A program made the position numbers and the translations under genes. A stretch of 64,000 nt of DNA from Agarophyton chilense. Lineage: Eukaryota; Rhodophyta; Florideophyceae; Gracilariales; Gracilariaceae. Location of the stretch: assembly GCA_030374765.1 (NCBI GenBank), contig JARGXX010000117.1, forward strand, positions 1,426,001 through 1,490,000, read 5' to 3'. The notes beneath the pieces are model-generated. The model was not told where the DNA came from. It saw only the letters and a list, made by a program, of their open reading frames with translations, and did no database searches. Shown here piece by piece: positions 20,858-56,746 of this stretch; positions within the stretch are counted from its first letter, which is position 1, and every line of letters starts with the position of its first letter.

Positions 20858-21547
20858 CTACGCAACCTTTTCCCGTGTAGACACCGGGTCCTTCTTGACA
20901 GATTCCTGCGCGACGGGGAGAGGAACGCGTGTTCGCGCTGCTCCCTGTAAGGGTTTACGAACGATTGGGATCGTAGACCCGTCTTCGAGTTCCACAGTTC
21001 TATTCCGAGGACGGATGGCTTCCACGAAGCGGTCGCAAAAGTCACAACCCAGTATGACTGGTCCTGCAAGTGACTTGCATACAATAAACTCTAGCTGAAC
21101 GAGATAAGAGCCTAACCTCACCATGAGGGAAATTGTACCCAGTGTCCGCAGCGGGTTGTTGTTCGCATCAGCGATATCCAAACGTGGACCAGTACGAACT
21201 TGAACCCGGAGCAGCGGGGGTAACAATTCAACATGAATTAAGTTAGGAGCGGCTCCTGTATCCAGGACAGATGTTTGACGAACCATAAACTGGTTGGACA
21301 GGCAGAAGTCGGCGAATGCTTTATAATTCCGCTTGGCCATTACCATAACTCGATCCGGAATACGGAGATTACGGGACCGTATCCATGGGCAACGGAGGAC
21401 ACTAAAGTATCCCGAGTTTACATCGGTGTCAGCCGTTCTCCTTGAAAGGATAGTCACAGCTGGGGAGCGAAGCTGGAGCGCCTCGGGCGTCTTCAACTCC
21501 GGCTTAGAAGACGCCCCTCCCGCAGGGGAGACTCCCAAGTTTAGTTT
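20858..21547 (-). pseudogene. retroviral-type aspartic protease
   Basis: Contains the active-site motif VLDTGAAPNLIH and the downstream ILGCDF turn expected for a Ty3-type protease. The frame is -1 relative to gag and overlaps its end at a run of five A residues directly before the gag stop (GAAAAAC TAA, minus strand, 21541-21550). A TAG at 20858-20860 separates it from the reverse transcriptase part of the same frame. Confidence 0.88.
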
Positions 21548-23571: not shown

Positions 23572-23783
23572 GCTGCAGACACGACACCGACGATTCGGGG
23601 TAACGATGAAATTCGATCACGAGATTCCCAGAGAACGGATGACGTAACACAAAACAAAAATAAAAACCAATTCCACCCTTTCCAAAGGGGACCACTACAA
23701 CAAATCTTCACGACGGTGCTTCCTCTTCCAAGAGATATTCCAACACGTGGATGACCAACCCAAGAGTCCGAGAACGGCTTCTA

Positions 23784-37249: not shown

Positions 37250-38044
37250 AGTGAGACGTTCTTTGGCTTCATTTCGCAGCACATGGCAACGAGTGGCACA
37301 GGAAACCCATCATTTTATTGCAGCAAAACGAAAAGTGCGAGCACTACATATATCATGTATTAATTACAAAATGATTGATAATCTTGCACAAGAGCACTAT
37401 CGAGTGCGAGCAGGGAAAAAGATGAGAGATGTAACCACTAATTACGCACCACCGTTCAGATTGCTGTCAACCGCGGAGTATCTGTCAATCCAAGACATGT
37501 TTTTTTATGATATTAAGAACGACCCGGTACGTCAGTGTTCTCGGAATGCTAGTTCAGTGGTCAAAAAAGGACGAATTGAAATGACCGAAAAACCCGTGAA
37601 TTTATCCAAATTTGGAGGTGTTAATTTCCAAAAATATTTTCATTCGTTCATTAGTGCTAGTTTGTATGGGAAGGAAAACTAGCACATATCTGCAGTTTTT
37701 CTAGTTTTGATGGAGGTAAAACTAGCGTGAATCTTTCTGTCGCCGCAGTTTAAAGGTAAAAGTAGAGAAGTGGTGCAAGAGCAGATTCAATCTTTGTGCG
37801 CTCTAGATTGACAGATTAGTACAAACAACCGGTCCCAAAATGGACCTCAAAATAGAAATTGAACATTTAGTACCATCCATATCAATCGCAATAGAATCGC
37901 AGCCCGACCTGGCAGACCTCACGTGCCTTGCATTCTATATTATTCTCCACCGCCCTCCCCTGTCACGTGCCCTGTGTGCGCCATACTCTCTCTCCGTCTA
38001 CGCCCCCTACCAACTTCTTTCCCACCACCTCTCCTCCACCCACC
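37250..38044. other. upstream region of the transposase gene
   Basis: A GTG-initiated ORF (37251-37682) carries no motif. Around 37640-37740 the motif AAAACTAGC recurs (GTGCTAGTTT, AAAACTAGCAC, TTTCTAGTTT, AAAACTAGCG), partly inverted. Such short repeats could be subterminal binding sites for the adjacent transposase, but no element end is identifiable. Confidence 0.4.
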
Positions 38045-41000: not shown

Positions 41001-41308
41001 GGGCAACAGACGACGAACAAAACCACACCGCCCACCCCCTTCCTATCTCAAACACTTCCAACTCCGACAACGTCTCCCCCTGGTTCGGCCTCGTACCATC
41101 CTCTTCCATTCTCGGCCCCGTTCATGTACTTCGCCAAAACTACCCCGCACCCCCTTTCACCCCTCGATTGCACTGGCGCTTCCATCGATTTTACCTCAAC
41201 AGATTCTACCGAGACCCAACTGCCAAGCCCTACTTCTCCAACACCACCACTGGTGGCACAACACCACCACTGGGTGGCACCCATAATAATACCTCCCAAG
41301 GCACATGA
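38045..41308 (+). CDS. CACTA/Plavaka-like DDE transposase (about 1087 aa)
   Basis: I start at ATG 38045 (CCACCATG), which opens the N-terminal zinc finger (C5, C9, H22, C26 of MPSCCFNGC...RHQRRC), although the frame is open from 37928. Landmarks follow in the order of fungal Plavaka transposases. Near residues 392-430 comes YCADIPEAKDILAIS, then HPCHRCSVPR. Near 519-540 is PLHNFHLGVSKLIK. Near 712-742 is DIRRFGGLHFNDAGIFEQ, then AHYSRTSKRR. A Ser/Pro-rich linker follows the zinc finger. The protein should cut and paste an element carrying matching inverted repeats. The ORF is a single intact exon with AATAAA right after the stop (41312-41317), so the copy looks young. The family call rests on motif order, not on a search. 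Confidence 0.8.
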   Translation: MPSCCFNGCSFFAREIPALQRHQRRCPHRLSANKRFLSPGGNEPNFPPRTKRHKSTSQLPPHPPPSHRPSDNVPLAHHDSYLQDQLSLSLHTQDAIHVATAPLGSPSSLALSPLPPSTPPLDNPHLEKMVLYISSIASKLGQRKADELITLLNDPHFSESTFRNSVSSAKQCLELQADLFHQRIRSIGFAPSTIFDPHKRFSATLFQKDAIHVLKQQLALAHFKNTFFHPISQTSASGSPAFAHPMAATLGSKVVPALKTAIMQSTKDNIVWHLPHSTGIDSFIGLVQIYSDKSSTSLKSSSITSYPLHITLLNFSDSFRRKCISDNLTLLGYLPTSFTPITPSPDADIITHSSSIPRQTKMELIQQTISSLLQPLFSSALPGFPFRDADGVLRQCHPIIASYCADIPEAKDILAISHGTRPQHPCHRCSVPRSQLHQHSHAHPPRSLPLTLAARNKHFSLLKDSEAALLARKPRVSRNFKEQALQALHSLSLAKYPSLFESYPLFNITPLLTPYNIFPFEPLHNFHLGVSKLIKLAAIERLRSEHLFTTISSTNSRRSFHSVRTSILKHSNFILTAIENHSPATGLHIDFSTSESGQSLNGFFTTDGVRGMLEAKDYRALDMVFPFIGAFFDRCCDEANSAPITTVFSKYTDLLLTSMCYNSVPEWTTSRLAKLASQIHSFKHRAVDVLGPYHTSNLGTLKFHLLDHIVDDIRRFGGLHFNDAGIFEQAHTLFKAHYSRTSKRRPTAHNETIRAIERSDAVNNWISLSADPSVTSSSHAPPPPFQARKPGFVRDGKHTSFSDLITAHKFLRANPHSTISSLQDLFSPDTIAIISQIGTLALPSFVTLTLETLALNQDSPTLRQTRLTFVNSAYVVGGFTPTLDDYIADRNELAVKDPPLPLIQRIFAAPSFGPSKTPKFSHILVAGSSFSNPTPTAWVCKLNSLLRFTTPSSPSTHNEFAFVQFLELVPPQDQVDVSLNCICLRWATDDEQNHTAHPLPISNTSNSDNVSPWFGLVPSSSILGPVHVLRQNYPAPPFTPRLHWRFHRFYLNRFYRDPTAKPYFSNTTTGGTTPPLGGTHNNTSQGT

Positions 41309-41395
41309 TCCAATAAAATAGTCACCGCTGCTTTTCTTCCATAGCCGACCCCCATCTTGCTCCACCTCCTTACCCCCTTATCCCCCCGTACCTTA

Positions 41396-44048
41396 TCACT
41401 CTCCCACTCCTTGCCTACTCCCCAACGCTAAGCGCTTGAACCGTGGTTCTTCTGGTCCACATGACGCTATATAGCAATCTAACACCGCTCCAAGTCTTCT
41501 CGTGAGATTCTCCATGAAAAACTCCTCCCTTATCGCCAGATAGATTTTCTCTCTCGACGGTATCCATAGCCCAACCGTCGCGATTCTCTCCTTATTCCCA
41601 CTCACATCTCTACGATTCCCTCCACAGAATCCATCATTCTCAAACTCCTCAGCATACTCATCCTTCACCATGTTCCAGGCAACCCTCAATATGTCCTCAA
41701 CAGCCAGTGGCAGAAACCTCCCAAACAGCGTCGAGAACAAAAGTTGCCTTTGGCCTCCCCGCCCAACGTCTCTATCCATCGTGGTCACCACACATCCAAT
41801 CCATGCATCAAGTCGCGCAAGATGCATCACCGTCCCATCCACATACTGCCTTTCTCCATTTCTGTGACTCTCTACCGCGTAGCCCATAAACTCCTCCAAC
41901 ACTTTCAACGACACCTGATTTCGAAAATACATATCTGCCTCACCAAAGTCCTCCAAGTTCTCAGACACCTTCGATCCAGAATAAGTAATATCTTCAATCG
42001 CACTCGTTCTCCACGCACACAGCTTACCTCTCCCATCCTCCCCCGACCCCATCAACTTCTCCTGCGCCTCCTCAATCTGCTTCTTCAACTCCGCCCAAAG
42101 CTCCGTCCCTTCAGTCACCTTAGCTCGTTTCGCGATCAAATCATATCCAAGCATGGAAAACAGCTTATCACGCGCTGCTCGCTTCCGCACCCCAACCACA
42201 TCGCTCAATGTCTGCTTCATCCTCTGTCTCAAGCACCTATCCGCACTTACATTTTCCACGCACTCCTCTCTCCTCCCCGCTTCCCTTATCGACTCCCATT
42301 TCTCTCCCATTAACTCAGTCTCTACCACGTGCTTCAACAACAAATGGCTCCCGCCCTCTGTCGACGGCGTATACGGTCTCATCTCATATGCAACCTCAAT
42401 TGGACATCTCGGAACCATTTCCTTCTCTCCCACCACAAACATACTTTCCTCCCTACTCTCCCCAACCGCCTCACTTCTATTCTTCCAGCTTCGACCCACA
42501 TTCTCGGTGTCGAAGCAAAGTTCCGATGCCTCCAGTTTTGCACAATGAAGAATCCTATCATACACACGACGTGCAAATCCATAAAAGCATTCCTGCACTC
42601 CAATGTCATACTTTCGTCGCCGCGTCACGCCTCCCTCCCCCCTCCCTTCCCCAGCGATTCTACTTTCAACGCCTCCCTCAAACTCTCAATCAGCACATTC
42701 TGCTGCTTCATTTCCTCCCTCGCCCGATCCAGCTCCGTTTGGGTCATTTTCAAACTCACCATCACACTGTAGCTGTCTTCCTTCATACGTCCCATTTGTC
42801 CCTTCAACACATTCATCTTCTCAATTAGCATCGACCGCGGCAACAAACCTATGTCATCATCATTTGCTTCATCTTCCACTATACGGACGGCGTTCTCCAC
42901 GACATTTAAATTCGCATTCTCCCCGTTATCATTATTCCTTGTGAATACAATGTTTCTCCTTACTCGCATACCTTCCGGCGTCCTTCGCCTTGCGTTCACC
43001 TCAAACCCTTCAACTCCCAAACCCACCCCTCTCCTCGGTGGCAAACGCTCGACATCTTCTCCCTGATGAGAAAGAACTGCTGCTCTTCCATCGCCTTCCT
43101 CCCCTGAACCACGTGTTCTCCCTCCAGCAAACCCCCTTCTCCCCCCTCACTCACATGCACTTCTCTGCTTTCCCTTTCGTCTATCGCTCTTCTTCCTGTA
43201 ACTCGAACACTCCCCATTCTTTCCCTTGCACGCTCTCTCCTTTCTTCCACGTAATCCAAGTTCGCCCCCTCCCATCTTTCCGCCTGTTCCCCCGCGGTAA
43301 CTCCAACACTCTCTCCTTCTGTTCTCTCTCGAACGACTCTTGCGCCCGCGATTAGACCACTACTGGGTCCACCTATTCTACCCTCCCCACCACGGCTACT
43401 CTCTATTCTCCCTTTCTGTATCTCATCATCACCGTCCTCTTCCCTCATACCCGTAAACGATGCCCCTGCTTCTTCAACGCCTCTGAGGCGGGATCCACGT
43501 TCTCCGATCATTCTCTCTCCCTCCTTACGCCCCTTCGTCCTCTCATTCGGAATCTCTTCACCTCCTTCAGGTGCAGAGCATGGATTTACCGGCTCCACAT
43601 CAGCTGAAGACGTGAGTACAGCACTTAGAGTCCGCTCGGATGCATCCCCTCTCCTTGTCCTCCCTGGAGCTCTGCTCGCCCTCCCCCGCAATCCACTTCT
43701 AGGTACACGCGTGCGGTTGCTTCGCACGCCATCCCGTTTTCCATCGCCGCTCCGCACCATCTCTCCCGTAGGCGACGTGATTTGCTCCGTACGCGACGTG
43801 ATTTGCTCCGCACTCTCCTCCGTCACCGTCTCCTTTGCGCGAACAGCCTTTCCTTTGCCCCCACTCGCCTCTCCTTCCCCACCATCTTGCCTTGATCTAC
43901 CTCTCAGGCGCACGCCTCCCTTCTCTCCACTCGCGCCCTGGAGCCTACGCCCCTTGTCCCTTCCGCCCTCCGCATCCCCTCCATGCCGCCGTGATTTTGT
44001 ACCGCGCCCGCTAGTGTTCTCGCTTCTCGATTTGCGCTTCGGAGCCAT
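41396..44048 (-). CDS. coiled-coil partner gene of the transposase, probably three exons
   Basis: ATG at 44046-44048 (ACCATGG) starts a basic, Arg/Gly/Ser-rich protein (MAPKRKSRSE). Three frames follow one another: 42996-44048, about 42625-43044 and 41396 to about 42690. Two short GT-AG segments would join them in frame: 43063-43112 (50 nt) and either 42611-42663 (53 nt) or 42593-42663 (71 nt). The middle part holds a coiled coil (MLIEKMNVLKGQMGRMKED, TELDRAREEMKQQNVLIES). The last about 400 residues are a charged helical domain I do not recognise. It converges with the transposase, 88 bp apart, as expected for the accessory TnpA-like gene of a two-gene DNA transposon. Programmed frameshifting or sequence errors are alternatives to the introns. 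Confidence 0.6.
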
Positions 44049-44216
44049 GGTTGAAGAGAGAGAGAGCGATCGTGGTATGGTCTTCCACGCGTTGCAATGC
44101 GATGGATGGGAGAGAAGCTTCGAAACATTCTGCTTCCAAAAATATACCTCCACCCTTTTCGTGTTCTCAGAAAACCCCCAAACTTTTCAGATATTTTAAA
44201 TATGCGCTCGAACGCA

Positions 44217-44333
44217 CCAGATATTGGGAAAGTATTCTCCTTCGGTGTACATGACTTTCCTTTAGCATATGTACTACGTCACGCTTTGACGTTATATGTA
44301 GCGACAAACATAGTAAAAGCCCACAATATCTGG
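44217..44333. other. inverted repeat between the partner gene and the methyltransferase gene
   Basis: CCAGATATTGGG (44217-44228) is matched in inverse by CCCACAATATCTGG (44320-44333). It lies in the promoter region of the coiled-coil gene and the 3' flank of the methyltransferase gene. Confidence 0.45.
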
Positions 44334-44372
44334 TACACTACAATGAAGTAAAGTAACAAAAGCGATGCACTT

Positions 44373-47300
44373 TTAATCGATTACTATGACTGGCGTGTTA
44401 TTCATACTCCAGATATACTCTGTCCCATAATCCGCGAACAGCTCCTCTCCTATTTCTATATCTCGAATTGCTTGCACAGAAAGCAATCTATAGTCTCTCA
44501 ACTGAAATGGGGTCCGCCCCGTCCCCGGAGTTCTGATGACCCGAACATTTGCAGTTCGGCGTCTCATTAACCCGTCTTCAACCGCATCCCTGTCCCTATC
44601 CCCTTCCACATACTTGGGGTCGTTAATTGTTCCCCCCAAGCAAAATGGAGCAGGGACAATCCACACCGGAATAAGAGACACCCCACTAATTCTTCCTGGT
44701 AGCTTGTGAAACACTTCCCCTCGGACGCTTATCTCCATCGCGTACTGCCGAAAACGATCAGCAGTCGCTTTCAATAGCCCCCCTCCGTATGCCTTATGAA
44801 CTTCCTTCCGCTTTGAAAGATTATGGTACACCAAAGTCCCGTAAAAGTAACAAACAGTCTCACCTTGTATCACCCGGCGTGTTGTGTACACACCAACTCC
44901 AGCATTCGGGTGCCTTATCGTCGACTTTGCAATCCGACAACCACATACTGTCGCCTCCACTGCCAGAATAGCATTCCAATCCAACAGTGACATCTTTCCT
45001 TGAAAACTTCTTGGCCACTCATACAGCGCCTGCCGTCGCCCAATCTCCGATATATTCTTATCCTGCCACATGGAGGAGAGAAAATCCACGATATGGGGTG
45101 GAAACATCTGATGCTCGGGAAATCCGGTAGGTGTTTTCCAGGACTTCGAACGCTTTATGACGACGTCCGGAAACAAGCATGTCACTCGAGTCACAGCGTT
45201 CCGAACATCTTGCGTTATATGAATGTCCGTCTCGTTGTTCCGCATGCATGACGCAAATTTCACTGTAGCGGCGTGCTTCGCATGAGCAAAGCACTGCGGA
45301 TCTGGCTCACACCCTAGAAACTGACGGTGCTTTTCCAGTTCCATGCATGCCATGGCCGTTGAAAATGTTCCGGCGAAGAGGTCCACCACTATGTCTCCCG
45401 GCTGAGAAAACCTGCTGATGAGCTCCTTCAGCAAAGCGCGTGACTTCTGTTCCGCCCGCACTTTCTGATACGTAACTGCTCCTTTGGCATTCTTCCTTCT
45501 CCATAGAAGTGTTTCACCATTCGACATGGGAGGCACTTGGTCAATCACGCTATGGTAACCCGGATATCGCGATGGTACATAGCTGAAGTTCTCATAGTTC
45601 ACCATGCCATGTTGTTCGGCGTAGGACAACCCGCTGCGAACTCCATGAATGGCGTACTCTGTTCCGGGAAACAGGGAGCACGAACTACGTCCGGGATTAC
45701 GCATCGGATTGCCTTGAGAGCGAATGAAGTGCAGCTGGACCTTGTCCACGACAAACGACCTGCTCTTCTGTCCATTCTCATCCTTTGCACCAATTCGACC
45801 CAACACTTCTTTCCATTCGTTCACCTGCTCAATCGCGCAGAATATAACGAAATGCCCTCCCGGACGCAGAAGTTTAGAGATGAGCTTCGCCGTCTTCACC
45901 ATGTCTTGCCGGTTAAGAACGTCGTACCAGCTGTTTTTCCTGTTCTTCTTCGCACGTATATTATACGGCGGGTCCGTGAGAACCAACTGCACTTTCCCTA
46001 TCGGAGAGACCCCATTGCTGCGCAATGTCTCGTCAATCTCCACCAGGTTCTCGAAAGTACAATTGTACATTCGACAGTGCTTATCCATCTCCGACTCGCA
46101 CTTTTGGAGAGACATTATATCATCCAGAGAGGTAAGGTCGTGAGGCGGCAGAATATCCACCGACTCAGATTCGACCGACCTTGGTCCAGCTGTGGAAGAA
46201 TGCTGACCAACACCCATGTTCTCTTCCTCATTCCCGGTCCCACCCTCCACTCCCTCTCCACCCTCCACCGCCGGAGCCTCCGAATCTTTCTCAGGGGGTA
46301 CAACTTCTATCTCGTCTTCTTCCATAACCATAGTAGGTTCCGCCTTTGTCGCAGCCACCACTTCCACCTCCACACTCCCTCGCAGCTTTAGTGGCGATAT
46401 GTATTCCGAGATGGTAGAGATAAGAGAGTTCGAGAAGCAGTCGAATCTCTCCGCAAACACTCTAGGCAAAGTGTATGTAAACGGTTTTAGAACGTCCCAT
46501 CTTTCCGGAGCTGATATAGAGTAAAGCTGCTCATTCACCACCACTTTGTGCAGGTCAGCGAGAAACTCTTTGGCCAACATACGAAGTGGAGTGTCAACGT
46601 ACTCCGGCAGGTTCCACGCCCATGGGACGACATCCTCCTCCAATAAAGTACGGTTTCTACCAGGAAGGAGTCGTTGGGCCATGTCCTTGTGAGAGAACCC
46701 ATCCCTTCTGTTTCCGATTGCCTGGAACTGCATATCAGAATATCGTAGATGGATAAAGGGCAAAACCATGAATTCCACGCCAGGGAATCCCAAATACTGG
46801 GCGAAGCTGTCCCACGCGTTATTGACGAGCTGCACACCAAAGCCCACACGCTGAGCTACTGGTTTGTCATAAATCGCCACCTTCGAAAATGGCGTATCGT
46901 AGGTTCTGTCCCGCTTTCTTCGCTTACGGGAGACTCTTCTCTTCTCCATAGAGACCGACTGAATACAAATGAGGAACAGCAACCTCTGGAACATTGTCGG
47001 GAAGTCGGTCGCGAATGGAGCCCGGCTTTTGCTCGCCTTCTTTCGGGTTGTATCCAGACCTTTGAAGAACTCTGTCAAAGTGACATTCTTCGGGATGCCC
47101 TTGAACTCCACCGCCTCGTACGCGTTCCAAAAGTCCCTCACGCGCCTATCTGGGTCCCCATCCCTTATATCCAGCAACCTCGCCGAGAAATAATTCTGAC
47201 AGTTCGAGCCCCTCATTCCTACAACTCGGAGCTCATCTTCTGTGTAATTGGTGTGGTCGGGACCTAGGAGAGTATAAAAAAACTTCGCGGTCTCCGGTAG

Positions 47301-47504
47301 GATGTGGCGATTGGCAATTGCGAAATCGATGAATGCAGTGTGCCCCACTTTTCGCGGCTCATCTTCCTCCCGCCTCGTTAATGCGTAACGATCACGCAAA
47401 TCCAGACACGCCCTGATAACTTCATCCCCCGTACCAAACAGTTTACCCATTTCGAAGGTGTCTGCCGCAGGCGATGAAGAAGTTCTCGTGGGTTCTGGAG
47501 CCAT
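44373..47504 (-). CDS. DNA N6-adenine/N4-cytosine methyltransferase fused to a SET domain (1043 aa)
   Basis: Single exon from ATG 47502-47504. Residues 1-370 are a region I do not recognise, with an Arg/Lys-rich patch at 188-201 that could be a nuclear signal. Residues 380-450 are acidic linker. Residues about 480-745 are a beta-class amino-methyltransferase: catalytic DPPYN at 511-515, LLRPGGHFVIFC at 545-556, and the S-adenosylmethionine-binding block DIVVDLFAGTFSTAMACME at 704-722, then GCEPD. DPPYN before FxGxx is the bacterial beta-class order. Residues about 860-1033 are a SET domain: GVGVYTTRRVIQGE at 869-882, an N-D and A-N pair at 961 and 985, and GEELFADYGTEY at 1019-1030. One protein could thus methylate DNA amino groups and lysines in chromatin. 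Its promoter faces the palindrome array and the divergent gene at 48814. Confidence 0.88.
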   Translation of the reverse strand: MAPEPTRTSSSPAADTFEMGKLFGTGDEVIRACLDLRDRYALTRREEDEPRKVGHTAFIDFAIANRHILPETAKFFYTLLGPDHTNYTEDELRVVGMRGSNCQNYFSARLLDIRDGDPDRRVRDFWNAYEAVEFKGIPKNVTLTEFFKGLDTTRKKASKSRAPFATDFPTMFQRLLFLICIQSVSMEKRRVSRKRRKRDRTYDTPFSKVAIYDKPVAQRVGFGVQLVNNAWDSFAQYLGFPGVEFMVLPFIHLRYSDMQFQAIGNRRDGFSHKDMAQRLLPGRNRTLLEEDVVPWAWNLPEYVDTPLRMLAKEFLADLHKVVVNEQLYSISAPERWDVLKPFTYTLPRVFAERFDCFSNSLISTISEYISPLKLRGSVEVEVVAATKAEPTMVMEEDEIEVVPPEKDSEAPAVEGGEGVEGGTGNEEENMGVGQHSSTAGPRSVESESVDILPPHDLTSLDDIMSLQKCESEMDKHCRMYNCTFENLVEIDETLRSNGVSPIGKVQLVLTDPPYNIRAKKNRKNSWYDVLNRQDMVKTAKLISKLLRPGGHFVIFCAIEQVNEWKEVLGRIGAKDENGQKSRSFVVDKVQLHFIRSQGNPMRNPGRSSCSLFPGTEYAIHGVRSGLSYAEQHGMVNYENFSYVPSRYPGYHSVIDQVPPMSNGETLLWRRKNAKGAVTYQKVRAEQKSRALLKELISRFSQPGDIVVDLFAGTFSTAMACMELEKHRQFLGCEPDPQCFAHAKHAATVKFASCMRNNETDIHITQDVRNAVTRVTCLFPDVVIKRSKSWKTPTGFPEHQMFPPHIVDFLSSMWQDKNISEIGRRQALYEWPRSFQGKMSLLDWNAILAVEATVCGCRIAKSTIRHPNAGVGVYTTRRVIQGETVCYFYGTLVYHNLSKRKEVHKAYGGGLLKATADRFRQYAMEISVRGEVFHKLPGRISGVSLIPVWIVPAPFCLGGTINDPKYVEGDRDRDAVEDGLMRRRTANVRVIRTPGTGRTPFQLRDYRLLSVQAIRDIEIGEELFADYGTEYIWSMNNTPVIVID

Positions 47505-47677
47505 TTATGTACATGTTCAAACAACCTCACGGGCGGTCGTCACGAGAGCCTGAGTGAAAGAGAGCAGCGGGTGCGGGTGGGTGCGGGTGGGTACGGAAAG
47601 ATTGTGAGTACGGTTGAGGAGCGCGCACGGAAGAACGGTTGTTGCGGAACGACTTCGCAGCTATCCTGGTTGCATTC

Positions 47678-48523
47678 TGTCGGCCGTCAGAGGTGCGCTC
47701 CGACTTCATCGGGGGTCCCGATGAAGTCCCCGCGCACCTCTGTCGGCCGACATAATACATATAATTTTGTAATTTTTAGGACGCCCAGGTGTACACGGTG
47801 CATTCTGTCGGCCGACAGAGGTGCGCGGGGACTTCATCGGGACCCCCGATGAAGTCGGAGCGCACCTCTGTCGGCCGACAGTCGACCAACATCTCAGAAA
47901 CGCATCATGCGTGATGTTATGGCGTATTTGTCGGCCGACAGGGGTGCCCTGCGACTTCATCGGTCCACCGATGAAGTCGCAGCACACCCCTGTCGGCCGA
48001 CAAATCACCAACATGTTGTAGGGACACCATGTTGGTGATTTGTGGGCCGACAGGGGTGTGCTGCGACTTCATCGGTGGACCGATGAAGTCGCAGGGCACC
48101 CCTGTCGGCCGACAAATGCCATAACATCGACATCATCGCGTTTCTGATGAAGTCACCGCGCACCTCTGTTGTGTACACCTGGGCGCGTACTATGTCGGCC
48201 GACAGAGGTGCGCTCCGACTTCATCGGGACCCCCGATGAAGTCGGAGCGCACCTCTGTCGGCCGACAGAGTGCACCGTGTACACGTGAGCACTCCAAAAA
48301 TTACAAAATTATATGTATTATGTCGGCCAACAGAGGTGCGCGGGGACTTCATCGGGACCCCCGATGAAGTCGGAGCGCACCTCTGTCGGCCGACAGAGTG
48401 CACCGTGTACACCTGAGCGTTCCAAAAATTACAAAATTATATGTATTATGTCGGCCGACAGAGGTGCGCGGGGACTTCATCGGGACCCCCGATGAAGTCG
48501 GAGCGCACCTCTGTCGGCCGTCA
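47678..48523. repeat. array of seven 74-75-bp palindromes plus one half copy
   Basis: Full copies lie at 47678-47752, 47806-47880, 47929-48002, 48041-48114, 48193-48267, 48321-48395 and 48449-48523; a half copy lies at about 48146-48169. Each begins and ends with the 12-bp palindrome TGTCGGCCGACA (or a one-base variant) and has GACTTCATCGG / CCGATGAAGTC around a 3-5-bp centre. The spacers are themselves repeated and inverted: the left spacer after copy 1 (47753-47805) reappears in reverse after copies 6 and 7. The whole of about 47680-48270 is roughly mirror-symmetric about 48022, a palindrome of palindromes. It fills the divergent promoter region of the two chromatin-type genes. Confidence 0.93.
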
Positions 48524-48616
48524 GGATATTTTTAATTTTTTAATTTTATTTTCTTGTATCGCCTACCAAGCCAATAGGCGTGTTTGTGATGGAAAGAGAC
48601 AAGGAGTTTCTTGAGT

Positions 48617-48668
48617 TTGAAACTAAGCGGACGTAGCTCAGGTTGAAACTAAGCGGACGTAGTTCAGG
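48617..48668 (+). repeat. 26-bp tandem duplication upstream of the ParB/oxygenase gene
   Basis: Two adjacent copies (48617-48642, 48643-48668) containing ACTAAGCGGACGTAG, differing by one C/T. Its position 146-197 bases before the ATG suggests a promoter element. Confidence 0.8.
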
Positions 48669-48750
48669 CTGATTGCAACGAACTGCTCTCGGGAGTGTTC
48701 CGGATAGTCGCCACCAAAGGAGCTCGATCTAATACGTCTTAGTCTGTATA

Positions 48751-48760
48751 CCATAAAAGG
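48751..48760 (+). promoter_or_regulatory. CArG-like / TATA element
   Basis: CCATAAAAGG fits the CC(A/T)6GG consensus exactly and lies 54 bases before the ATG, so it could act as a MADS-protein site or simply as the TATA box. Confidence 0.45.
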
Positions 48761-48813
48761 CTCAAAGCGCTCTGCGACCATTTGCAACCTCGACCGACTA
48801 CGATCCGATTCAA

Positions 48814-51800
48814 ATGATGACTCGAGGCAAAGCGAAAGCGAGGGGTACTCCGCGGGGTACTCCACGCGCCACTCCGCGAAAAGCTACATCGGGAAACAAT
48901 CTGGCTGGTGGGGATAGGGTGGCGTTGTTCCTGGCGGATGGGACAGGGAAGAAGAAGGGTACTATGGTTGGCACTGCGGAGTTGAGAGGTGTTGGGGGCA
49001 GTGGAGCGGCCGGGAAGGCGCTTTGCAGAGCGATGCATGGCCATTCGTTGCGCGAGTCTGCGAAGCCGGGAGAGGACTTGGTGGCCATCTGGAGGACTGA
49101 AATTAAGGAGGGGATCAACTCCAAGTATCCGTACTCCTTCAAGGGAGCAGAGGAGCCGCCGGAGTTGCTGAAGGATATGGTGTCGGCAGGTATATACGCA
49201 TGGGATACCTCGATGATGACACGCGTCTCCTCTGTGCTGACTCCAGGGCCTCCTCGGCCGGAGACTCCCAAAAGCGCGACCCCCTCGAAGGAGTCTGCTA
49301 CGCCTTTGAGGGGGAAGAGGGCACAGCCAACAACAGTGCCGCCGGCCATGAAGCAACCCGTCAAGCCGAAAAAGAGGGTGACGATAGTGGATGATTCTGA
49401 TGAAGATGTTGTGGAGGTGGGGTCAGCGGTGAATGTACGCGGGGATTCGCACACCGGTCCCGAGTTGGAGTTGTTCGATGACGGCGATGCCGTTCCTTCG
49501 CAGGAAGTGGATAGGACTCTCGTGGAAAAGAAGATCTCTGCTTCAGACTATGACCAGTGCCGCTTGATTGTGGACATAGATGACATACAAATCCCCGAGA
49601 AGACTGTCAGAAGTGTGAATGCGGAACACAAGGCGGCGACGATGGCAAAGTGCAAAACGTTTGGCTGGCTTGCGTCGGCAGGGTCGATTGCTGTTGCCAT
49701 CGTCGGGGGAATGGAATTAGATTTCAGTGAAATTGTTCACAATGGGAGGGTAGTGGTGCCTGTCATACTCATTGACGGTCATCACCGCGTCTTGGTTCTG
49801 CGAGATCTGAAGAATGATCCCTCTGAAGGGAGAAAGTGGTTGGAAATTGTGCGGTCTCTTGATGTCGTTCTTTGGAGACGCAAGGACCGGAAGCCTTTAT
49901 CGCTGAACGAAGTGCTCGGTCTTGGTAATGTACTCAATGAAATGAGTTCAAATGTGTTGAAGATGAGTTTCGCCGACAAGGTTCATTCGACAGTGTCCTT
50001 CATTTGCAACTTGATTGACGATAAGAGAACCAAGTTGGCTGACCTTACTCCGACACGGATAGCTGGGGCGCTGAAGACGAGCGAAGCTATAGGAATCTAC
50101 AGCTTGCGCCACTTGAATCGCTATGCGACTCTTGGGTTGAAATTCGTCAGGAGCGAAGGTCTCCTGGAGTTCTTTGAGAACGTATGCAAGGAGGGTCCAG
50201 TGCTAACGCTTGCGCATGTGTCGAGTGACTTGTTGTTAGGACTCGAAGACGAAATATTCCGTTTCGCAATCCGTTGTTTGCAGCTACATGTGAGGGTGAG
50301 GATGGGTTCTACGGGGAATATGGGACGTTTCCAGGAGACGCGAAAGCAGTTCTTCCAATGCGCCATAGGAATGTTCCAACTATGCGAAAGGGCGGGAAAG
50401 GAGAAGGGTCTGACGGCGGGGAAGGTTCTAGACAGCACAATTGTGATGGGAAAGAACGAGGTGTCTTTAAGGGAGTACCTTTGCATGCAAACGGCGAAGA
50501 TGGAGCTCAGTGGTCCGAAGCGGTTGTGGCCGGGGTTGGTGTCGAAGAGGATGAAAATCGCACAAAGGCGGATTGAAGGCGGTCTGAAAGTGAGTCTGGC
50601 GTCCCCAAGTGCGGAGAAGGATGTGGTGGAGGTGCCACCTTCTGTGAATGTTCCTTCGTCTAGTGCTGGGGAGTCTGTACCCCACCAGGAAACCGTGGTT
50701 CCCAGACGCATCACACGAACTAGAAAAGGTACTGAGCGCGGGCTGGATGCTGCGGGTGAGAGGGTGATGGAACCTAGACAGAGAAAGGGGAAGAGAAAGG
50801 CTGTGGTCATTAGTGATGATGAACGCGAGTATGAACAGCCTTTAAAGCGGAAGAGGAAGAGGAGAAAGACGGTGGGCACATCTGCGGCTCAAATACCGGC
50901 TGACGTGGTGGATGTGTTCAAGAAGATGAGCAGGAAAGAGCTGAAGCGCTTCTTGAAGGAACATGTACTCAATGTTTTCTCATCGAGTGAGGATGAACTG
51001 GATGATGACGGGGGGCAGGGTGCATTTGTAGGGGACGAAGAGGAGGAAGGTGTGCAAATGCGTGGCTTCGAAGACAATAATCCGGAGGGTGTTCCGAAGG
51101 GGCTGAAGAGGGCGGGACCGTATGCGGGGGGGTCGGGTATGTCGTGGGTGTACTTGGTGAATGCACTTCCGAGCGAGTGGCCGGCGGGTGAAAATGGAGT
51201 GAAGCATCAGCACCTCTGGATGCAGATGATTTACCTACGGAACAAGCACAGGGCGGAGTGCTTGAGGGTAGAAGACTTGAAAAGTGTGCACCATGCGGTT
51301 TATTGGCGTGCTGCTCATAACAGGCACAAGGAACTGGGTTCCACGAAAGAACCGGTTCTTGGGGTGATTCTACCGACGAAGGACCACCCTGTGAATGAAG
51401 AGCAGGCGATATGGATGGCAGCAATGGAGAGGGATGACTTGGCCCGCGAGTACTTCGCGACTAAGAGAAGTGAGCTGATGGAGAAAGGATTTTGTGTGCT
51501 GGAAGAGTTTGCCACGGACGAGGGGATGGCGGATGAGGCGAAGAAGAGGGGGGTAAACTTCGATGGGGATGTGACTGGGACTTTGCTAGAGTTCTTCCAG
51601 ACGGATTTCTTGAACCAGCCGGACTTGACGATTGAAGGGAATAGAAAGAAATGGGACCCTATAATCAACGCTGGTGAGGAGAGAGACGCTGGAGATAGAA
51701 TGAAGGGAGTTGGGCGGTACATTACGACGAAGGTGGGGATTGTGGATTCTGTGGAGGGGGACGAGAACAACGTTTTAATGGTGAGGAAAAGGGCATTGTT

Positions 51801-52500
51801 GGATGCGAGGTTTGGACAGATTGCGGCCGCTCTTCGGTTGTGCAACAACAGGTCGGGGAAGAAGAGGATGTATGCCCCTGAAACAGGGGGGCGAGTGCTG
51901 TGTACGGCGGAGGGCTGTCCAAGGCAGGTGTTACATACGGACTTTCGAGGACTGACCGATGCCGAGAAGAACGTCGGAGAGGTTCCAGGGTTCTTCATGA
52001 TGGCGTCGGGAGCGAGTTCGTTTATGCTTTGGGTTTGTGAGAGGTCACATAACATGTACGTGCCCGACGACAGGAGCTTGAAGCGGCTGTCTCGGACGAT
52101 GGTAGTGAGGAAGTTCAGGATTCCGCCGTACTCCATTTTTATTGGAAGAGGAGATGTGTTTCATGCTGGAGCTGGATACGAGGATGCATTGGTTAAGGAA
52201 GTTTGCATGAGGTATCACATGTACTTGGTACCGGATGGGTACAAGCTACCGGACGCAGTGCATAGGCAACCAGCATTTCGGCCTAAGTTCGAAGAGGATG
52301 ATTCCAACAAGGGTGATGATGAAGACGTCCAGGTAGATGAGGATGAGGAGTTGGATGAAGATTATAAAATGGAAGTTGTTGAAAGTGGGGAAGAGGAGTA
52401 TGAAGAAGAGGATGATGAACCTGGGATGGGTCTCAACTCGGCTAACACAGATGGAGACTATGAAGACGGCGGTATGATAATGGATGACGACGACGACTAG
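48814..52500 (+). CDS. ParB/sulfiredoxin-like domain plus 2OG-Fe(II) oxygenase-like domain protein (1228 aa)
   Basis: Single exon; two ATG codons in tandem at 48814. Residues 1-30 are basic with repeated TPR tripeptides. Residues about 245-345 form a ParB/Srx-like fold (LIVDIDDIQIPE, VPVILIDGHHRVLVLRDLK); D321-GHHR-325 is the box II-like catalytic/nucleotide motif. A helical region follows to about 580. Residues 620-755 are basic/acidic linker with several nuclear-signal-like clusters (KRKRKRRK near 679). Residues about 870-1145 resemble a double-stranded beta-helix oxygenase: ELMEKGFCVLEEF, iron ligands H1041-x-D1043 (VLHTDFRG), H1117 (GDVFHAGAG) and R1133 (MRYHMYLVP). The C-terminus is highly acidic. 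AATAAA lies about 25 bases after the stop. Divergent from the methyltransferase-SET gene. Substrate unknown; oxidative removal of a DNA or histone methyl mark is an inference. Confidence 0.75.
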   Translation: MMTRGKAKARGTPRGTPRATPRKATSGNNLAGGDRVALFLADGTGKKKGTMVGTAELRGVGGSGAAGKALCRAMHGHSLRESAKPGEDLVAIWRTEIKEGINSKYPYSFKGAEEPPELLKDMVSAGIYAWDTSMMTRVSSVLTPGPPRPETPKSATPSKESATPLRGKRAQPTTVPPAMKQPVKPKKRVTIVDDSDEDVVEVGSAVNVRGDSHTGPELELFDDGDAVPSQEVDRTLVEKKISASDYDQCRLIVDIDDIQIPEKTVRSVNAEHKAATMAKCKTFGWLASAGSIAVAIVGGMELDFSEIVHNGRVVVPVILIDGHHRVLVLRDLKNDPSEGRKWLEIVRSLDVVLWRRKDRKPLSLNEVLGLGNVLNEMSSNVLKMSFADKVHSTVSFICNLIDDKRTKLADLTPTRIAGALKTSEAIGIYSLRHLNRYATLGLKFVRSEGLLEFFENVCKEGPVLTLAHVSSDLLLGLEDEIFRFAIRCLQLHVRVRMGSTGNMGRFQETRKQFFQCAIGMFQLCERAGKEKGLTAGKVLDSTIVMGKNEVSLREYLCMQTAKMELSGPKRLWPGLVSKRMKIAQRRIEGGLKVSLASPSAEKDVVEVPPSVNVPSSSAGESVPHQETVVPRRITRTRKGTERGLDAAGERVMEPRQRKGKRKAVVISDDEREYEQPLKRKRKRRKTVGTSAAQIPADVVDVFKKMSRKELKRFLKEHVLNVFSSSEDELDDDGGQGAFVGDEEEEGVQMRGFEDNNPEGVPKGLKRAGPYAGGSGMSWVYLVNALPSEWPAGENGVKHQHLWMQMIYLRNKHRAECLRVEDLKSVHHAVYWRAAHNRHKELGSTKEPVLGVILPTKDHPVNEEQAIWMAAMERDDLAREYFATKRSELMEKGFCVLEEFATDEGMADEAKKRGVNFDGDVTGTLLEFFQTDFLNQPDLTIEGNRKKWDPIINAGEERDAGDRMKGVGRYITTKVGIVDSVEGDENNVLMVRKRALLDARFGQIAAALRLCNNRSGKKRMYAPETGGRVLCTAEGCPRQVLHTDFRGLTDAEKNVGEVPGFFMMASGASSFMLWVCERSHNMYVPDDRSLKRLSRTMVVRKFRIPPYSIFIGRGDVFHAGAGYEDALVKEVCMRYHMYLVPDGYKLPDAVHRQPAFRPKFEEDDSNKGDDEDVQVDEDEELDEDYKMEVVESGEEEYEEEDDEPGMGLNSANTDGDYEDGGMIMDDDDD

Positions 52501-52581
52501 ATAGTATCTGTTACCTATTGAACAATAAAGAGTACAATTTGAGGTAATATGTGGAGTAGTCCCCTTTTCTTGTAATAGTGA

Positions 52582-53767
52582 TCAGTCGTCTTTCAGTAGA
52601 AACTCCTGAACAACTGGATTGAAACGCGTGAGAGTAGCACTTGCTTTCACTTTCTCATAGTGAATGACAACTGTCGAAGATATCAAGATTACGACATCCA
52701 CTGTGTTACCAAGCAGTATAGGAACACCAGGTCCCTCAATGCGAGAGGTGGAGAAGGCGGTTGAAGAGAGTGCAGCGAAAGTGCATGCCGACAGCCTCAT
52801 ACCGAGTAGTCGGAAGGTTACATCCGGACTGGATATGAATAAAGCCTGTTGAAAAGAGTGGGAGAGGGCGCCAAGCACGAGGTTCATAAAAGAGGTTCTC
52901 CGTGGTTCCGGGGTCATTGTGAACTTTGTGTTAAGATAGGACTCTGGAAAGAAGGATATAGAAACAAGCTGGAGAAGATATGCCAAAGCGCCAACTGCGG
53001 CCCCTCCTGTGGAGAAGGCGATACAATTTGTCTTCACGTCTGATGAAAGGGTACCGCTGACTGGAATGAAGCGGTGAACGAGGAAAAGTATGGCGTTGAG
53101 GGGGATGAGTAGAGTAAGGAGTAGAGCCCCGAATTCCAGAAAGGCTCGTTTCTTCCAGGTATATCGCTGGTTTGGATTGAACGGCGTAGTTTGTAGAGAC
53201 CCGTATAACGCGTTTATACATTGTACGCCTCCTTCGATTATGAGAATGTGTAGCAGGCTTTGGATAGAACACCTCAATAGCGTTATGAGAATGAACCGAA
53301 GGAGAGAGTTGAATCTGAATGGAAGCGTATATTGCAGAGCTGGGTCTATAACTCCGAAGAGTGTAGTTAGTGTGATTGTGAACGTTAAGGTCGATGTGAA
53401 GAGTGTTTGCTAACTGAACATCTTAGTAAAGGCGTTCCGGTTTGCTAGTCTTCCTTGTACGCTGCACATAGGTAACGATATGATACCGCTCTTTGAACAG
53501 TTGTTTCAGAGTATCTTGCTGCTGTAGGGAGTTGCGAGTGGGGAGCCTCCTGGTGGTCGTACAAATGTCACGAATCTCGTCCATGAGCTCGTTGGTGATA
53601 TGATTCTGGAACCCTCTGACTTCGACCACATTCTGGGTGGTTGGAAGTTTGATTTGAAGGACTTCGTCGATGGTGATAACCGTTCGTTGTGGAAGAATAT
53701 CCACAGCTGCTGAGCATTGGACAGAAGAACCAGGGGGTAGGGAAAGACGTGCTTCGTAGCGCTGCAT
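52582..53767 (-). CDS. multi-pass membrane protein, unknown, two exons
   Basis: Exon 1 starts at ATG 53765-53767, preceded by a CT-rich leader and TATATATAT (53863-53872). It encodes a soluble part (IDEVLQIKLPTTQNVVEVRG). Exon 2 opens at 53409 after a textbook 3' splice site: TACTAAG branch point (53422-53428 on the minus strand), then TTAG. It stays open to 52582 with no ATG of its own at the start, which supports splicing. The 5' splice site is uncertain; phase-0 candidates are GTTACC and GTGCAG near 53480-53470. Exon 2 encodes about seven hydrophobic segments, for example LLRFILITLLRCSIQSLLHI and FLEFGALLLTLLIPLNAILF. No family recognised. It converges with the gene ending at 52500, 81 bp apart. 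Confidence 0.6.
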
Positions 53768-53862
53768 GCTTGAGAAGGAGAGGAGAGTGTTGTGTAGAAA
53801 GGTATTTGTGAGGGACTGGATACAGTATGTTGAGCGCAATGAAGTAGGGTGGTCATCGGTGG

Positions 53863-53872
53863 ATATATATAT
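53863..53872 (-). promoter_or_regulatory. TATA box for the membrane-protein gene
   Basis: ATATATATAT, 96-105 bases before the proposed ATG at 53767. Confidence 0.5.
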
Positions 53873-54182
53873 GTAGTGATCAAAGTAGTTGTTAGGTTGT
53901 TGCCGTATCTCTGTCGCGGAGTATGAATAATTGTTATGAATGAAAACCTTTGATAGGCTGTAGGAGCGGTTATTGGGTACAGACTTAATTGCAAAGTTGG
54001 AAGATTTATGAAGAGTGGTTGTAGTGATGATTTGTGATGTACGAAGCAATTCTTAATATCGTTTCATATATTCTGACGTGGTGTCGTGCGGATAGCAGTC
54101 TTTATCGAGGCAGCGAAGGAGATGGACATATGCTTTAGAAAGGAGGACTTGTTTTTATTGGAAGGGGTATATGAATGAAGTA

Positions 54183-55007
54183 CTACCCATTGAGGAGGAC
54201 GTTCAAGAAGTTCGTATGGAAAGGGGCGGGGTCACGGTTTCCAATGGATTTTTGGGCGTTAGAAACGTTGTAGAAGTAGACGTTCCGGAACTCAAAGTCT
54301 GAGAACGAGGTGGGGAACTGTGTAAGTGTTTTTCCGTGGGCCAGAAGTTTTTGGAGTGTTTCTGTTGTATTGTAGGCGATTCCTGTTTCGGATGTGACGA
54401 TGGCGAGGAGCTCTTTCATTATGGTTGAAACGACTGTGCGGTGTTGTACTGCAACTTCGTGCATTGTGATAAAGCCATAAGAGGAGCCGACGAGATTAAA
54501 AGCTGATATCCATACGAGTTTTTCGTAGTAAGCTTTAGAGAAGGAGGGCTGGTCGACGACATGACAAGTGAGGCCTGCGGTACTGAGGCGATTGGCGAGT
54601 GCGGGAGCCCATTTGCCGGTGGCAGTTGTGAGACCATGGGGACTGAGGAGGGTGACACCGTCCTCGGGGGGTGCGTTAAGGGAGGGGACGGCGAGGAAGA
54701 GAACGGCTTTGGTGCAGTTTTGGAGCCCATAGGTTGAAAGAAGTGGGAGAATGATTCCGTTCTGAAGGAAGACCAGATCCTCTCTGCGGGAGGAAGGGCA
54801 GAATTGAATGACGTCTTCGAGAGAATGATTTCTGCCGCAGAAGAAAATGGGGCCGTCGGGGATGTATTGCGCGGAGATGAATTCTTGAGTTGAGAGAAAA
54901 GCATCTTGTGGGGTGCCGTTGTTGCGAAGCAAAGTGCCGATTCGGCCTCTGCCGACAATAACGGCTGGGTCGGAGGTGCAAGGGATGGCAGTGAGAGAGT
55001 CGGTCAT
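54183..55007 (-). CDS. ketopantoate-reductase-like (ApbA/PanE fold) oxidoreductase, 274 aa
   Basis: ATG at 55005-55007, TATTTAA box at 55086-55092, AATAAA 25 bases after the stop. Residues 15-24 (VIVGRGRIGT) replace the usual GxGxxG with GRGRIG, still compatible with a dinucleotide-binding turn. QNG at 82-84 and the C-terminal helix YYEKLVWISAFNLVG (160-174) match the layout of ketopantoate reductases, where the EKL segment carries catalytic residues. The protein is shorter at the N-terminus than bacterial PanE. It is probably a plastid or cytosolic NAD(P)-dependent reductase of a plant/algal subfamily rather than a true PanE; the substrate is not deducible. It looks like an ordinary host gene and marks the right edge of the transposon-like zone. 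Confidence 0.65.
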   Translation of the reverse strand: MTDSLTAIPCTSDPAVIVGRGRIGTLLRNNGTPQDAFLSTQEFISAQYIPDGPIFFCGRNHSLEDVIQFCPSSRREDLVFLQNGIILPLLSTYGLQNCTKAVLFLAVPSLNAPPEDGVTLLSPHGLTTATGKWAPALANRLSTAGLTCHVVDQPSFSKAYYEKLVWISAFNLVGSSYGFITMHEVAVQHRTVVSTIMKELLAIVTSETGIAYNTTETLQKLLAHGKTLTQFPTSFSDFEFRNVYFYNVSNAQKSIGNRDPAPFHTNFLNVLLNG

Positions 55008-55618
55008 GTTGATTGCGAAAGGTGTTTGGAGTGCGGTGTGCTTGGAATTGAAGAAGTGGTGGGGGTGGCGAGTGTGGAGATGTGATTAAATAGAGAAGGA
55101 GTATGGTTGTGGAGGAATGGGTGTTAGGGGTTTTTGGGAAGGAGGTTAGATTTATGATATTGAATGGTGTTTATTGTGTTAAAAGTGTAGGAGTGTGTGT
55201 TGTTATGGAAGTCATAACGGGAAAGAGGGCTTATGAGTAATCGGCGGTTTGTGTTACGAATGAGTGTGATTTATTATAAATGAGAAGGCTATGAAATTGG
55301 GAGTAGTGAGGGAGCGCTGAACATGATAGAAGGTGTAGGAATATGGATGGGAGTGTGTGAGTGAGCAATGAGTGGGGTGAAGGGCATCCGGAGCGTAGAT
55401 GCAGGGGTGTACGAGGGTACTGAAATTGGGCGAGCGCGCGCGAAAAGCGGGTCAAAAAAAGGAGATAAAAGGCCGGAGGTGGGCGAGAGGATTTTCGAGG
55501 GGGGGTGCTGTGTGGGAGGCTGCGGGTACTACTGGCCGCACTAAGGTGAGTGCGCTTGCGCTTGCGGTGGCTCTTGTCGATAGCTTTCGCGGGCGTTGGC
55601 GATGTCGAGCGGATCCCC

Positions 55619-56746
55619 ATGGGGCTGGAGATGGGGAAGCTGTGGAGGGCGAATGAGGAACTGAAGAGGCGTGTGAAGGTGTTGGAAGTGCACATGGAAG
55701 GGGTGGGGGAGATTTGGGGTGCGCGGAAGGTGTTGAAGGAGGTGGGAGAGGAGAGGGGGAGAGCGAAAGGGTCGCCGGTGACGCCAGGGAGACGCGGGGA
55801 GCCGGCTGGGATGAAGAAGGGGAGAGAGGAATGGAAAGGGGGAGGAGTTGGAGAGAGTCGGCTGAAGAAGAGGAGGGTTGGTAAGGATGTGGAGAAGAAG
55901 GTTGGGAATGTGTGTGTGGTGGGGCAGCCGGGTGTGAGGAAATTGAGCAGTGGGGAGGTGGACGAGGTTGAGAATGCGGTGGTGGACTTCTTCAACCTCA
56001 AATACCCTCCCGGTGGAACGCTGGAGCCTAGTAAGCAAAAGGGCCAGTAATGAGGTAGAAGGTACTGACGACTGCCTTGGTATGGATCTCCACCTAGAGC
56101 GGTCAAAAGTGACCAGTAAACTGCAAATGCAGATTAAACTGCATTAAGTGGTCAAAACACTAAGATGCATGGAGTTCTTACATCCAAAATTTTTTTTTCA
56201 GGTGCCGAACTAGCGCAATCTGCAAAATTCTTAGATTTTTTGGCTTTTTATTTACAAAACTAGCTATGTAGCACACTTATATAGCATTCCGAGAACACAG
56301 ACGTAAAGCCTCACGACCACATGAAACGTATGACACAAAAATATGACTTTTTGTAGCAAAAGGGAGGTATTGCGGAGGAAAGTGTGCCAGGTGAAAGCAA
56401 AAGCGTTCTATGTGCCGAGGTTGTTGGGCAAGGAAAGGATTTGGACTCTGTGGCAAATAAAACTGTAACAGCATCTACTAATGAGGAAGGTATTCGGCCG
56501 ATGGGTATAAAGAGGAGAAAGTTCGAAAAAAGAATGGCGAAAGATGAAGTGGACGTGAATAAGAGCCTGAGAGGAATTTGTGAGGGTAATACGGAGGGTA
56601 ACAGGCTATTACAGGAGGAACAAAAAGCACAGGGAGAAGATCGAAAGGACGCAAAAGATATAGAGCTCCTGAAGCTGCTGGAACCAAATTCATCGGAGTT
56701 TAAAAAGATTATGAGGAGTTTGACGGAATGCTGCAAAGATGAGTAG
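55619..56746 (+). CDS. basic coiled-coil protein gene interrupted by a 312-bp insertion or intron
   Basis: I start at ATG 55619 (CCCCATGG). The first part (to 56050) has a leucine/valine heptad stretch (LWRANEELKRRVKVLEVHME), a basic region (KKRRVGKDVEKKVG) and an acidic end (SGEVDEVENAVVDFF). The same frame resumes at about 56357 and runs to TGA 56744-56746 with a helical tail (IELLKLLEPNSSEFKKIMR). The 321-bp distance between the two 10-bp copies of AGCAAAAGGG (56034-56043, 56355-56364) is a multiple of three. Dropping one unit rejoins the frames into about 268 residues. Either a mobile element broke the gene or this is an intron, for example GTAAGC at 56031 to GGGAG at 56366, which also restores the frame. 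Function unknown; composition suggests a nuclear protein. Confidence 0.5.
56034..56364. repeat. 10-bp direct repeats bounding a 312-bp insert
   Basis: AGCAAAAGGG at 56034-56043 and again at 56355-56364. The insert between has no terminal inverted repeats and no ORF. Just before the right copy the sequence reads CTTTTTGTAG, a good 3' splice site. Introner-type elements create introns with just such target duplications. Confidence 0.55.

Follow-up and report, generated by a model that had tools for sequence, protein, structure and literature searches.

A divergent methyltransferase-SET and ParB-like/oxygenase gene pair around a palindrome array in a Plavaka-type transposon of the red alga Agarophyton chilense

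Why should two large genes in a red alga, one resembling a writer of DNA and histone marks and the other a ParB-like oxygenase, diverge from a block of palindromes, and to what kind of element do they belong? The question is raised by a 64,000-nucleotide stretch of the Agarophyton chilense genome (GenBank assembly GCA_030374765.1, contig JARGXX010000117.1, positions 1,426,001 to 1,490,000 of the forward strand; hereafter the window), in which an earlier note, made from the letters alone, had proposed a self-contained epigenetic device at 44373–52500. The two open reading frames (ORFs) concerned, ORF A and ORF B, are transcribed divergently from either side of a palindrome array and form a conserved pair, found in two repeat lineages of this genome, and in the window the pair and the neighbouring transposase are parts of one mobile element that is repeated many times.

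Both genes are, as the earlier note described them, large, intact and intronless: ORF A, a methyltransferase-SET fusion of 1043 amino acids, lies at 44373–47504 on the minus strand, and ORF B, a ParB-like/2-oxoglutarate (2OG) oxygenase protein of 1228 amino acids, at 48814–52500 on the plus strand. The gap between them, which is the shared 5' region of the two genes, was said to be filled by seven palindromes over 1.3 kb; seven units of 74–75 nt are present, occupying about 0.88 kb (about 47671–48547) of the 1309 bp. Each unit is bounded on both sides by TGTCGGCCGACA, itself a short palindrome, or by a close variant, and encloses a further inverted pair, GACTTCATCGG / CCGATGAAGTC. The gap contains 168 exact inverted 14-mers within 150 bp of each other, whereas 200 dinucleotide shuffles averaged 0.12 and never exceeded 3.

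The attribution of an amino-methyltransferase and a SET domain to ORF A withstood profile searches. Residues 505–742 (45279–45992, minus strand) match N6_N4_Mtase (PF01555, E 3.4e-18, above the Pfam cut-off). Beta-class amino-methyltransferases are recognized by a permuted order in which DPPY precedes FxGxG; in ORF A, DPPYN stands before FAGTFS, and this order together with the predicted fold places the domain among beta-class DNA amino-methyltransferases. The predicted fold is CcrM/DpnA-like, with N6A enzymes ranked top in the structure search and N4C enzymes close behind, so that the putative DNA mark, judged from DPPY and this modelled fold, is more likely N6-methyladenine (6mA) than N4-methylcytosine (4mC). 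A search for bacterial or viral ancestors of the methyltransferase-SET fusion returned three bacterial methyltransferase loci (22–24%) and one phage ParB-methyltransferase (28%). The SET domain, at residues 869–1027 (44424–44900, minus strand), is barely above its cut-off (PF00856, E 8.2e-5; 23.4 vs 22.4 bits); the profile is matched by 16 of 20 aligned ORF A-type sequences at E ≤ 1, and the domain gives weak profile matches to KMT2C chains (E 0.0042–0.0055). NHS is a canonical SET motif, and at its place 14 of the 20 aligned rows have, by eye, ND instead of NH.

In ORF B, a 2OG-Fe(II) oxygenase fold is predicted at about residues 825–1146 (51286–52251, plus strand). The catalytic residues H1041, D1043, H1117 and R1133 form an HxD..H..R set that is invariant in all seven aligned ORF B-type sequences, and with the predicted double-stranded beta-helix they identify the region as a 2OG-Fe(II) oxygenase; structure prediction, which the note had named as a check, thus returned both the methyltransferase and the oxygenase folds. 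A ParB/Srx-like region, with approximate limits set by eye, covers about residues 225–420 (49486–50073, plus strand) and carries DGHHR at residue 321. DGxHR and ENxxR are the CTPase motifs of ParB, and DGxHR is kept in all six ORF B-type sequences that have the region. Foldseek places the ORF B model near ParB (6sdk, E 3.4e-3), ParB-N (5k5d, 8.7e-3) and Noc (7ol9, 1.1e-2), with probabilities of 0.97–1.00, and near phage ParB (E 2.7e-3); the predicted fold is therefore that of ParB/Srx, at modest E-values. A protein search with whole ORF B found no relatives, and one with residues 880–1165 found six, among them a protein annotated as hypothetical in Gracilaria domingensis, a red alga. Nothing useful came from searching the sequences of solved structures, whether the query was ORF B by itself or its family. 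Motif and predicted fold are what suggest a ParB identity; because no ParB sequence profile matches, we call ORF B ParB-like and do not file it as ParB.

To place the pair in its genomic setting, we compared its copies across the assembly (79.8 Mb, 135 contigs). Shared copy end points, inverted ends and 2-bp duplications delimit a Plavaka-type DNA transposon of 18,774 bp at 37530–56303. The transposase, which the note had taken for a neighbour of the device, is an ORF of 1126 amino acids at 37928–41308 on the plus strand (PF18759, E 1.3e-22) and lies within the same element. In flank searches (21 and 34 candidates scored, window copy included), end points 37530 and 56303, exact or a few bases off, were common to most copies, and a few copies are truncated. 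Comparison of copy ends gave inverted repeats of about 23 bp, CGTCWGTGTTCTCGGAATGCTAK: on the left CGTCAGTGTTCTCGGAATGCTAG (37530–37552, plus strand) and on the right CGTCTGTGTTCTCGGAATGCTAT, read as the reverse complement (56281–56303, minus strand), flanked in the window by the target-site duplication TA at 37528–37529 and 56304–56305. Equal 2-bp flanks were found in six of the seven copies read at both ends (TA four times, AA and TG), and the seventh, C2:1231, has the unequal flanks CG/TG; left out of this count were C71:2247483 (L045, right end motif not found), C71:148558, C95:697079-703953 (L061, a stretch without an end), C12:356208 (L062, left end truncated) and copies with one end read. 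The transposase domain and a duplication in the 2–3-bp range are Plavaka features. The termini described for PlavakaA (TGT..ACA) and PlavakaB (CATCA..TGATG), in the parts of the source consulted (PMC12730594), differ from those of the element, which begins CGTCAGTGTTC.. with TGT starting 6 bases inside; because its termini fit neither group, we file it under neither and call it Plavaka-type by its transposase.

DNA searches gave at least 40 genome matches to ORF A (2628 bases; 98–100% identical) and at least 41 to ORF B (97–100%, two of them pieces of one copy). A search with the Plavaka family gave at least 123 matches (123 scored of 235 candidates), 55 of which have an N6_N4_Mtase match within 9 kb; conversely, 58 of 116 PF01555 matches have a Plavaka match within 9 kb, on the opposite strand in 58 of 58. 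Matches are not equal to copies, as some copies yield two. The element is one Plavaka family with cargo, in dozens of near-identical copies.

The other 58 methyltransferase matches, without a Plavaka neighbour, led to a second lineage in the same genome: 20 of them sit in frames of 1130 or 1141 amino acids. We inspected four loci of this lineage (L079, L080, L081 and L082) and its ORF B side (L087–L092). The L079 protein is a full methyltransferase-SET and shares 35% identity with ORF A over 1067 columns, and for the L080 protein the figure is 34%; the L081 copy is split into two frames. Upstream of the methyltransferase-SET gene stand tandem units of 771–774 bp, each with a 143-bp palindrome that has short palindromes, ATTGCCTGCAGGCAAT for example, at its ends, and these units have no significant similarity to the array of the Plavaka element (best E 1.8). 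Across the array, contig C98 has a relative of ORF B that is 30–32% identical up to residue 834 and 55% identical in the oxygenase part, where HTD, H and R are kept. On C96, C33, C92 and C116, picked because arrays had been found there, the N-terminal part of an ORF B relative occupies the same place, so that five of the six lineage-2 copies read have an ORF B relative across the palindromes. A search with an ORF B-type protein (P0022) found at least 14 lineage-2 places (39 scored of 293 candidates), with open frames of 1316 amino acids at eight and of 1233 and 1335 at two more. Recurrence of the pair elsewhere, which the earlier note had set as a test, was borne out: a methyltransferase match lies head to head within 15 kb at 11 of these 14 places (not C63, C9 or C31), and head to head at 24 of 25 Plavaka-lineage places. 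Outside this genome, the methyltransferase-SET protein (P0002) and P0022 each match on 4 contigs, the longest of 20528; since these figures coincide, the two probably share a contig. Because lineage 2 repeats the pair, with unrelated palindromes between the genes in five of the six copies read around the array, we regard genes and array as a conserved module. Between lineages the array sequence has been replaced, while its place and palindromic form were kept where read.

Single-change codons in the lineage-2 methyltransferase-SET gene number 56 synonymous and 25 nonsynonymous for L079 versus L082, 37 and 32 for L079 versus L080, and 47 and 38 for L080 versus L082; these ratios are well under the neutral value of about 1.9–2.7 computed for ORF B, which suggests purifying selection. 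Among 30 ORF B copies of the Plavaka element, 650 substitutions are singletons. In a second count, singletons have a nonsynonymous to synonymous ratio of 2.40 against 2.69 expected, and two-copy variants 2.68 against 2.44; variants in at least three copies, a class of few sites, comprise 12 nonsynonymous and 12 synonymous changes (1.00 against 1.91 expected). This pattern fits a recent burst from few sources followed by near-neutral decay. Singleton C>T changes in these copies fall at CG 86 times (436 contexts), CC 75 (536), CA 43 (502) and CT 40 (476), a modest bias toward CG. Six short methyltransferase fragments elsewhere (C79:655360, C105:1199179, C71:762401, C128:250771, C68:3647902 and C95:188333), in 165-amino-acid frames with one TAG each, are perhaps an older, decayed repeat family.

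What, then, might the module do? We tentatively favor, as a possibility somewhat short of probable, a self-addressing anti-silencing or self-marking chromatin kit that would keep selfish DNA expressed. One of the two proteins would read the array as an address, and ORF B, given its ParB-like fold, is the natural candidate; the ParB-like part of ORF B would attach to the array, perhaps spreading outward in the way ParB spreads from parS, and would carry the 2OG oxygenase to the element, where a methyl mark on DNA or histone could be oxidised. ORF A would write an amino-methyl mark on DNA while its SET domain would methylate a protein, probably a histone, and together the two would swap host silencing marks for an element-specific active or self state, every new insertion bringing its own address in the form of the array. 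The silencing marks described in red algae, in the part of the source consulted, count for this anti-silencing reading: Gracilariopsis chorda has about 8% DNA methylation, alike over transposons, genes and promoters, and in Cyanidioschyzon H3K27me3 (trimethylated lysine 27 of histone H3) covers at least half of repeats (PMC8566409). A narrower version, in which a eukaryote has converted ParB-parS-like addressing into a chromatin editor directed by sequence, with a ParB-like clamp loading on the transposon's palindromes and spreading a 2OG demethylase or oxidase while a dual DNA/histone methyltransferase rewrites the mark, is doubtful. If it were true, lineages with unrelated palindromes would represent separate reader-address specificities, as in partition systems. 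More broadly, a kit that combines writers for DNA and for histone-type marks with an oxygenase and its own array of possible addresses, and that stays together in two lineages, would show selfish DNA carrying its own chromatin state. It would also put a bacterial-type DNA methyltransferase-SET fusion on the eukaryotic list and provide a natural candidate reader-address pair. The self-contained epigenetic device of the earlier note is partly supported as an interpretation, with the conserved mobile pair and its array in two lineages as the part that holds.

Several observations weigh against such a kit. Foldseek against the PDB gave no ParB or oxygenase match to ORF B at E ≤ 0.001, no ParB family is listed for any of the seven ORF B-type members in the profile search, and the ORF B profile meets a phage ParB-methyltransferase at E 0.089 (probability 0.65%). 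By eye, the E of the ParB ENxxR box is apparently absent from the ORF B alignment, so that spreading driven by cytidine triphosphate (CTP) may be lost, and the oxygenase matches listed are mainly small-molecule, PhyH-type enzymes and not TET. The full ORF B frame is kept in 6 of 30 copies, window copy included, and because copies decay almost neutrally after insertion, a host-level function is unlikely. Zero or one palindrome unit was detected in 10 of 30 copies (pattern count over the 1500 bp upstream of ORF B), and on C10 (L079) a helicase block comes after one palindrome unit, and no relative of ORF B was seen there.

Among the alternatives, it is rather unlikely that the array is a shared promoter or a block bound by the transposase or an accessory protein, with ORF A and ORF B as transposition accessories and DNA methylation controlling excision or replication timing, not silencing. 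Subterminal repeats serve as a binding block in CACTA-type transposons, the array does lie in the 5' region of both genes, and ORF A, ORF B and the transposase travel together; against this, the array has a central and not a subterminal position, in lineage 2 the pair and its array occur without any Plavaka match inside 9 kb, and 68 of the 123 Plavaka matches (some perhaps truncated) have no PF01555 match within 9 kb, which implies that the pair is not a general requirement for Plavaka transposition. That a writer and a 2OG oxygenase occur within one module could instead speak for DNA hypermodification, ORF A methylating a base and ORF B oxidising the methyl or the base further, as in phage and JBP/TET-type systems, and transposon-encoded TET/JBP proteins are known in fungi (PMC12730594, seen in part). 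We consider this unlikely, given that no TET or JBP is among the structure matches listed for the ORF B oxygenase, an absence that does not exclude such chemistry, and that the nine element ORFs scanned with Pfam contain no glycosyltransferase family.

Replication slippage might also have spread the palindromes as mere unstable debris or as small-RNA triggers, in which case the encoded proteins would play no part. Detected units vary from 0 to 7 among the 30 copies, whose genes are nearly identical, so that the array is far less stable than the genes; lineage 2 nevertheless carries unrelated palindromes in the corresponding position, again between these two genes, and we hold the debris explanation to be quite unlikely. 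A selfish restriction-modification-like system, in which ORF A would modify the DNA of the element and ORF B would recognise the palindromes, modified or not, so that copies are protected or their loss is punished, is improbable, since family scans found no significant nuclease match in ORF A or ORF B and SET and 2OG domains are ill-suited to a simple restriction system, even though phage proteins fuse ParB-like and DNA-methyltransferase domains (L055, by eye) and the best phage family of ORF A is a DNA methyltransferase (phrog_67, E 2.4e-26).

The element and its relatives show further features. Overlapping minus-strand ORFs of 410, 139 and 385 amino acids, of no assigned function, occupy 41396–44153, and a Pfam scan of the 410- and 385-residue products gave no match; additional minus-strand ORFs of 231, 208, 274 and 291 amino acids lie at 52582–56106. 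The ORF at 54183–55007 (minus strand) has a weak likeness to ketopantoate reductase (ApbA_C, E 0.038, below the cut-off) and would be an odd cargo. Elsewhere in the window, ORFs at 16685–23616 (minus strand) and 3–1439 (plus strand) resemble, by eye, long terminal repeat (LTR) retrotransposon integrase, reverse transcriptase and gag. Family searches of the genome found nine matches to light-harvesting proteins (best E 9.4e-36) and 13 to phycobilisome linkers (best 1.1e-41), and some of the contigs with these genes (0.9–5 Mb; C10, C16, C68 and C88) also hold element copies. These genes fit a red-algal host and led us to reject a fungal one, which the Plavaka transposase had at first suggested. 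On contig C39, a phycobilisome-linker protein of 892 amino acids, perhaps plastid ApcE, is found at two places, as an inverted repeat or a doubled assembly.

In lineage 2, 23 or more of the matches that lack a Plavaka neighbour lie, by eye, within 25 kb of a contig end (C98, C92, C33, C96, C116, C95, C25, C16, C10 and others). This lineage could be a repeat of subtelomeric or tandem type, or these could simply be points at which contigs break; because the four contig-end pieces read showed no telomere repeat by eye, "subtelomeric" is a suggestion only. On C98, the ORF B relative has a frame change at about L087:1966-1975, and a further palindrome unit follows it up to the contig end (C98:1501230-1501429, the end of L088), so that palindrome units may flank the lineage-2 module on both sides. 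The helicase block of L079 (1-3160) is an ORF with a helicase C-terminal domain (Helicase_C, E 1.4e-10) that by eye resembles RecQ, and interstitial repeats of the form (CCCCTAAA)n at L079 2014-2262 adjoin the methyltransferase-SET gene; telomere-linked helicase loci have a comparable setting of helicase and interstitial repeats.

Among known systems, the nearest are the TET/JBP genes carried by fungal DNA transposons (Plavaka, Kyakuja, Zisupton and others; Kojima, 2025, PMC12730594), which share with the element here cut-and-paste movement and a 2OG-type oxygenase thought to fight silencing. In the parts of that paper examined, neither a ParB part nor a methyltransferase-SET partner nor a palindrome array is described for them ("ParB" and "methylase" occur 0 times), and unlike them the oxygenase model of ORF B fits PhyH-type enzymes best among the matches listed. 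HarbingerS and MuDR of Phytophthora likewise encode SET in a transposon, in their case, unlike ORF A, with no DNA methyltransferase fusion in the citing passage (PMC12730594). In the Amoebidium Plavaka giant repeats, which have hits in red algae, many of the genes described are tyrosine recombinases, and "SET domain" occurs 0 times in the parts of the source consulted (PMC11244446). The bacterial-type writer named in a review of 5-methylcytosine (5mC) and 6mA in fungi, in the portion consulted, is MetB (PF02384) (PMC13297926). ORF A differs from the bdelloid rotifer N4CMT by DPPY, the SET fusion and its location in a transposon. In phage L055, the ORF at 6703-8037 joins ParB-like and DNA-methyltransferase domains in one protein, whereas in the module described here they are split between divergent genes that also encode SET and 2OG domains; the neighbour of the phage ORF at 7911-8933 combines the same two domains (both by eye), and the searches showed no link by descent between phage ParB-methyltransferases and ORF A or ORF B. 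The anti-silencing proteins of Arabidopsis VANDAL transposons resemble the proposed kit in their sequence-specific control of their own family's silencing and differ from the module here in that no writer or oxygenase is named in the citing passage (PMC12730594). A search of open-licence papers, mostly at the level of titles and abstracts, found no description of the module. Taken together, transposons with single epigenetic enzymes are a known kind, and the combination of genes with a palindrome array is, as far as the literature was searched, new.

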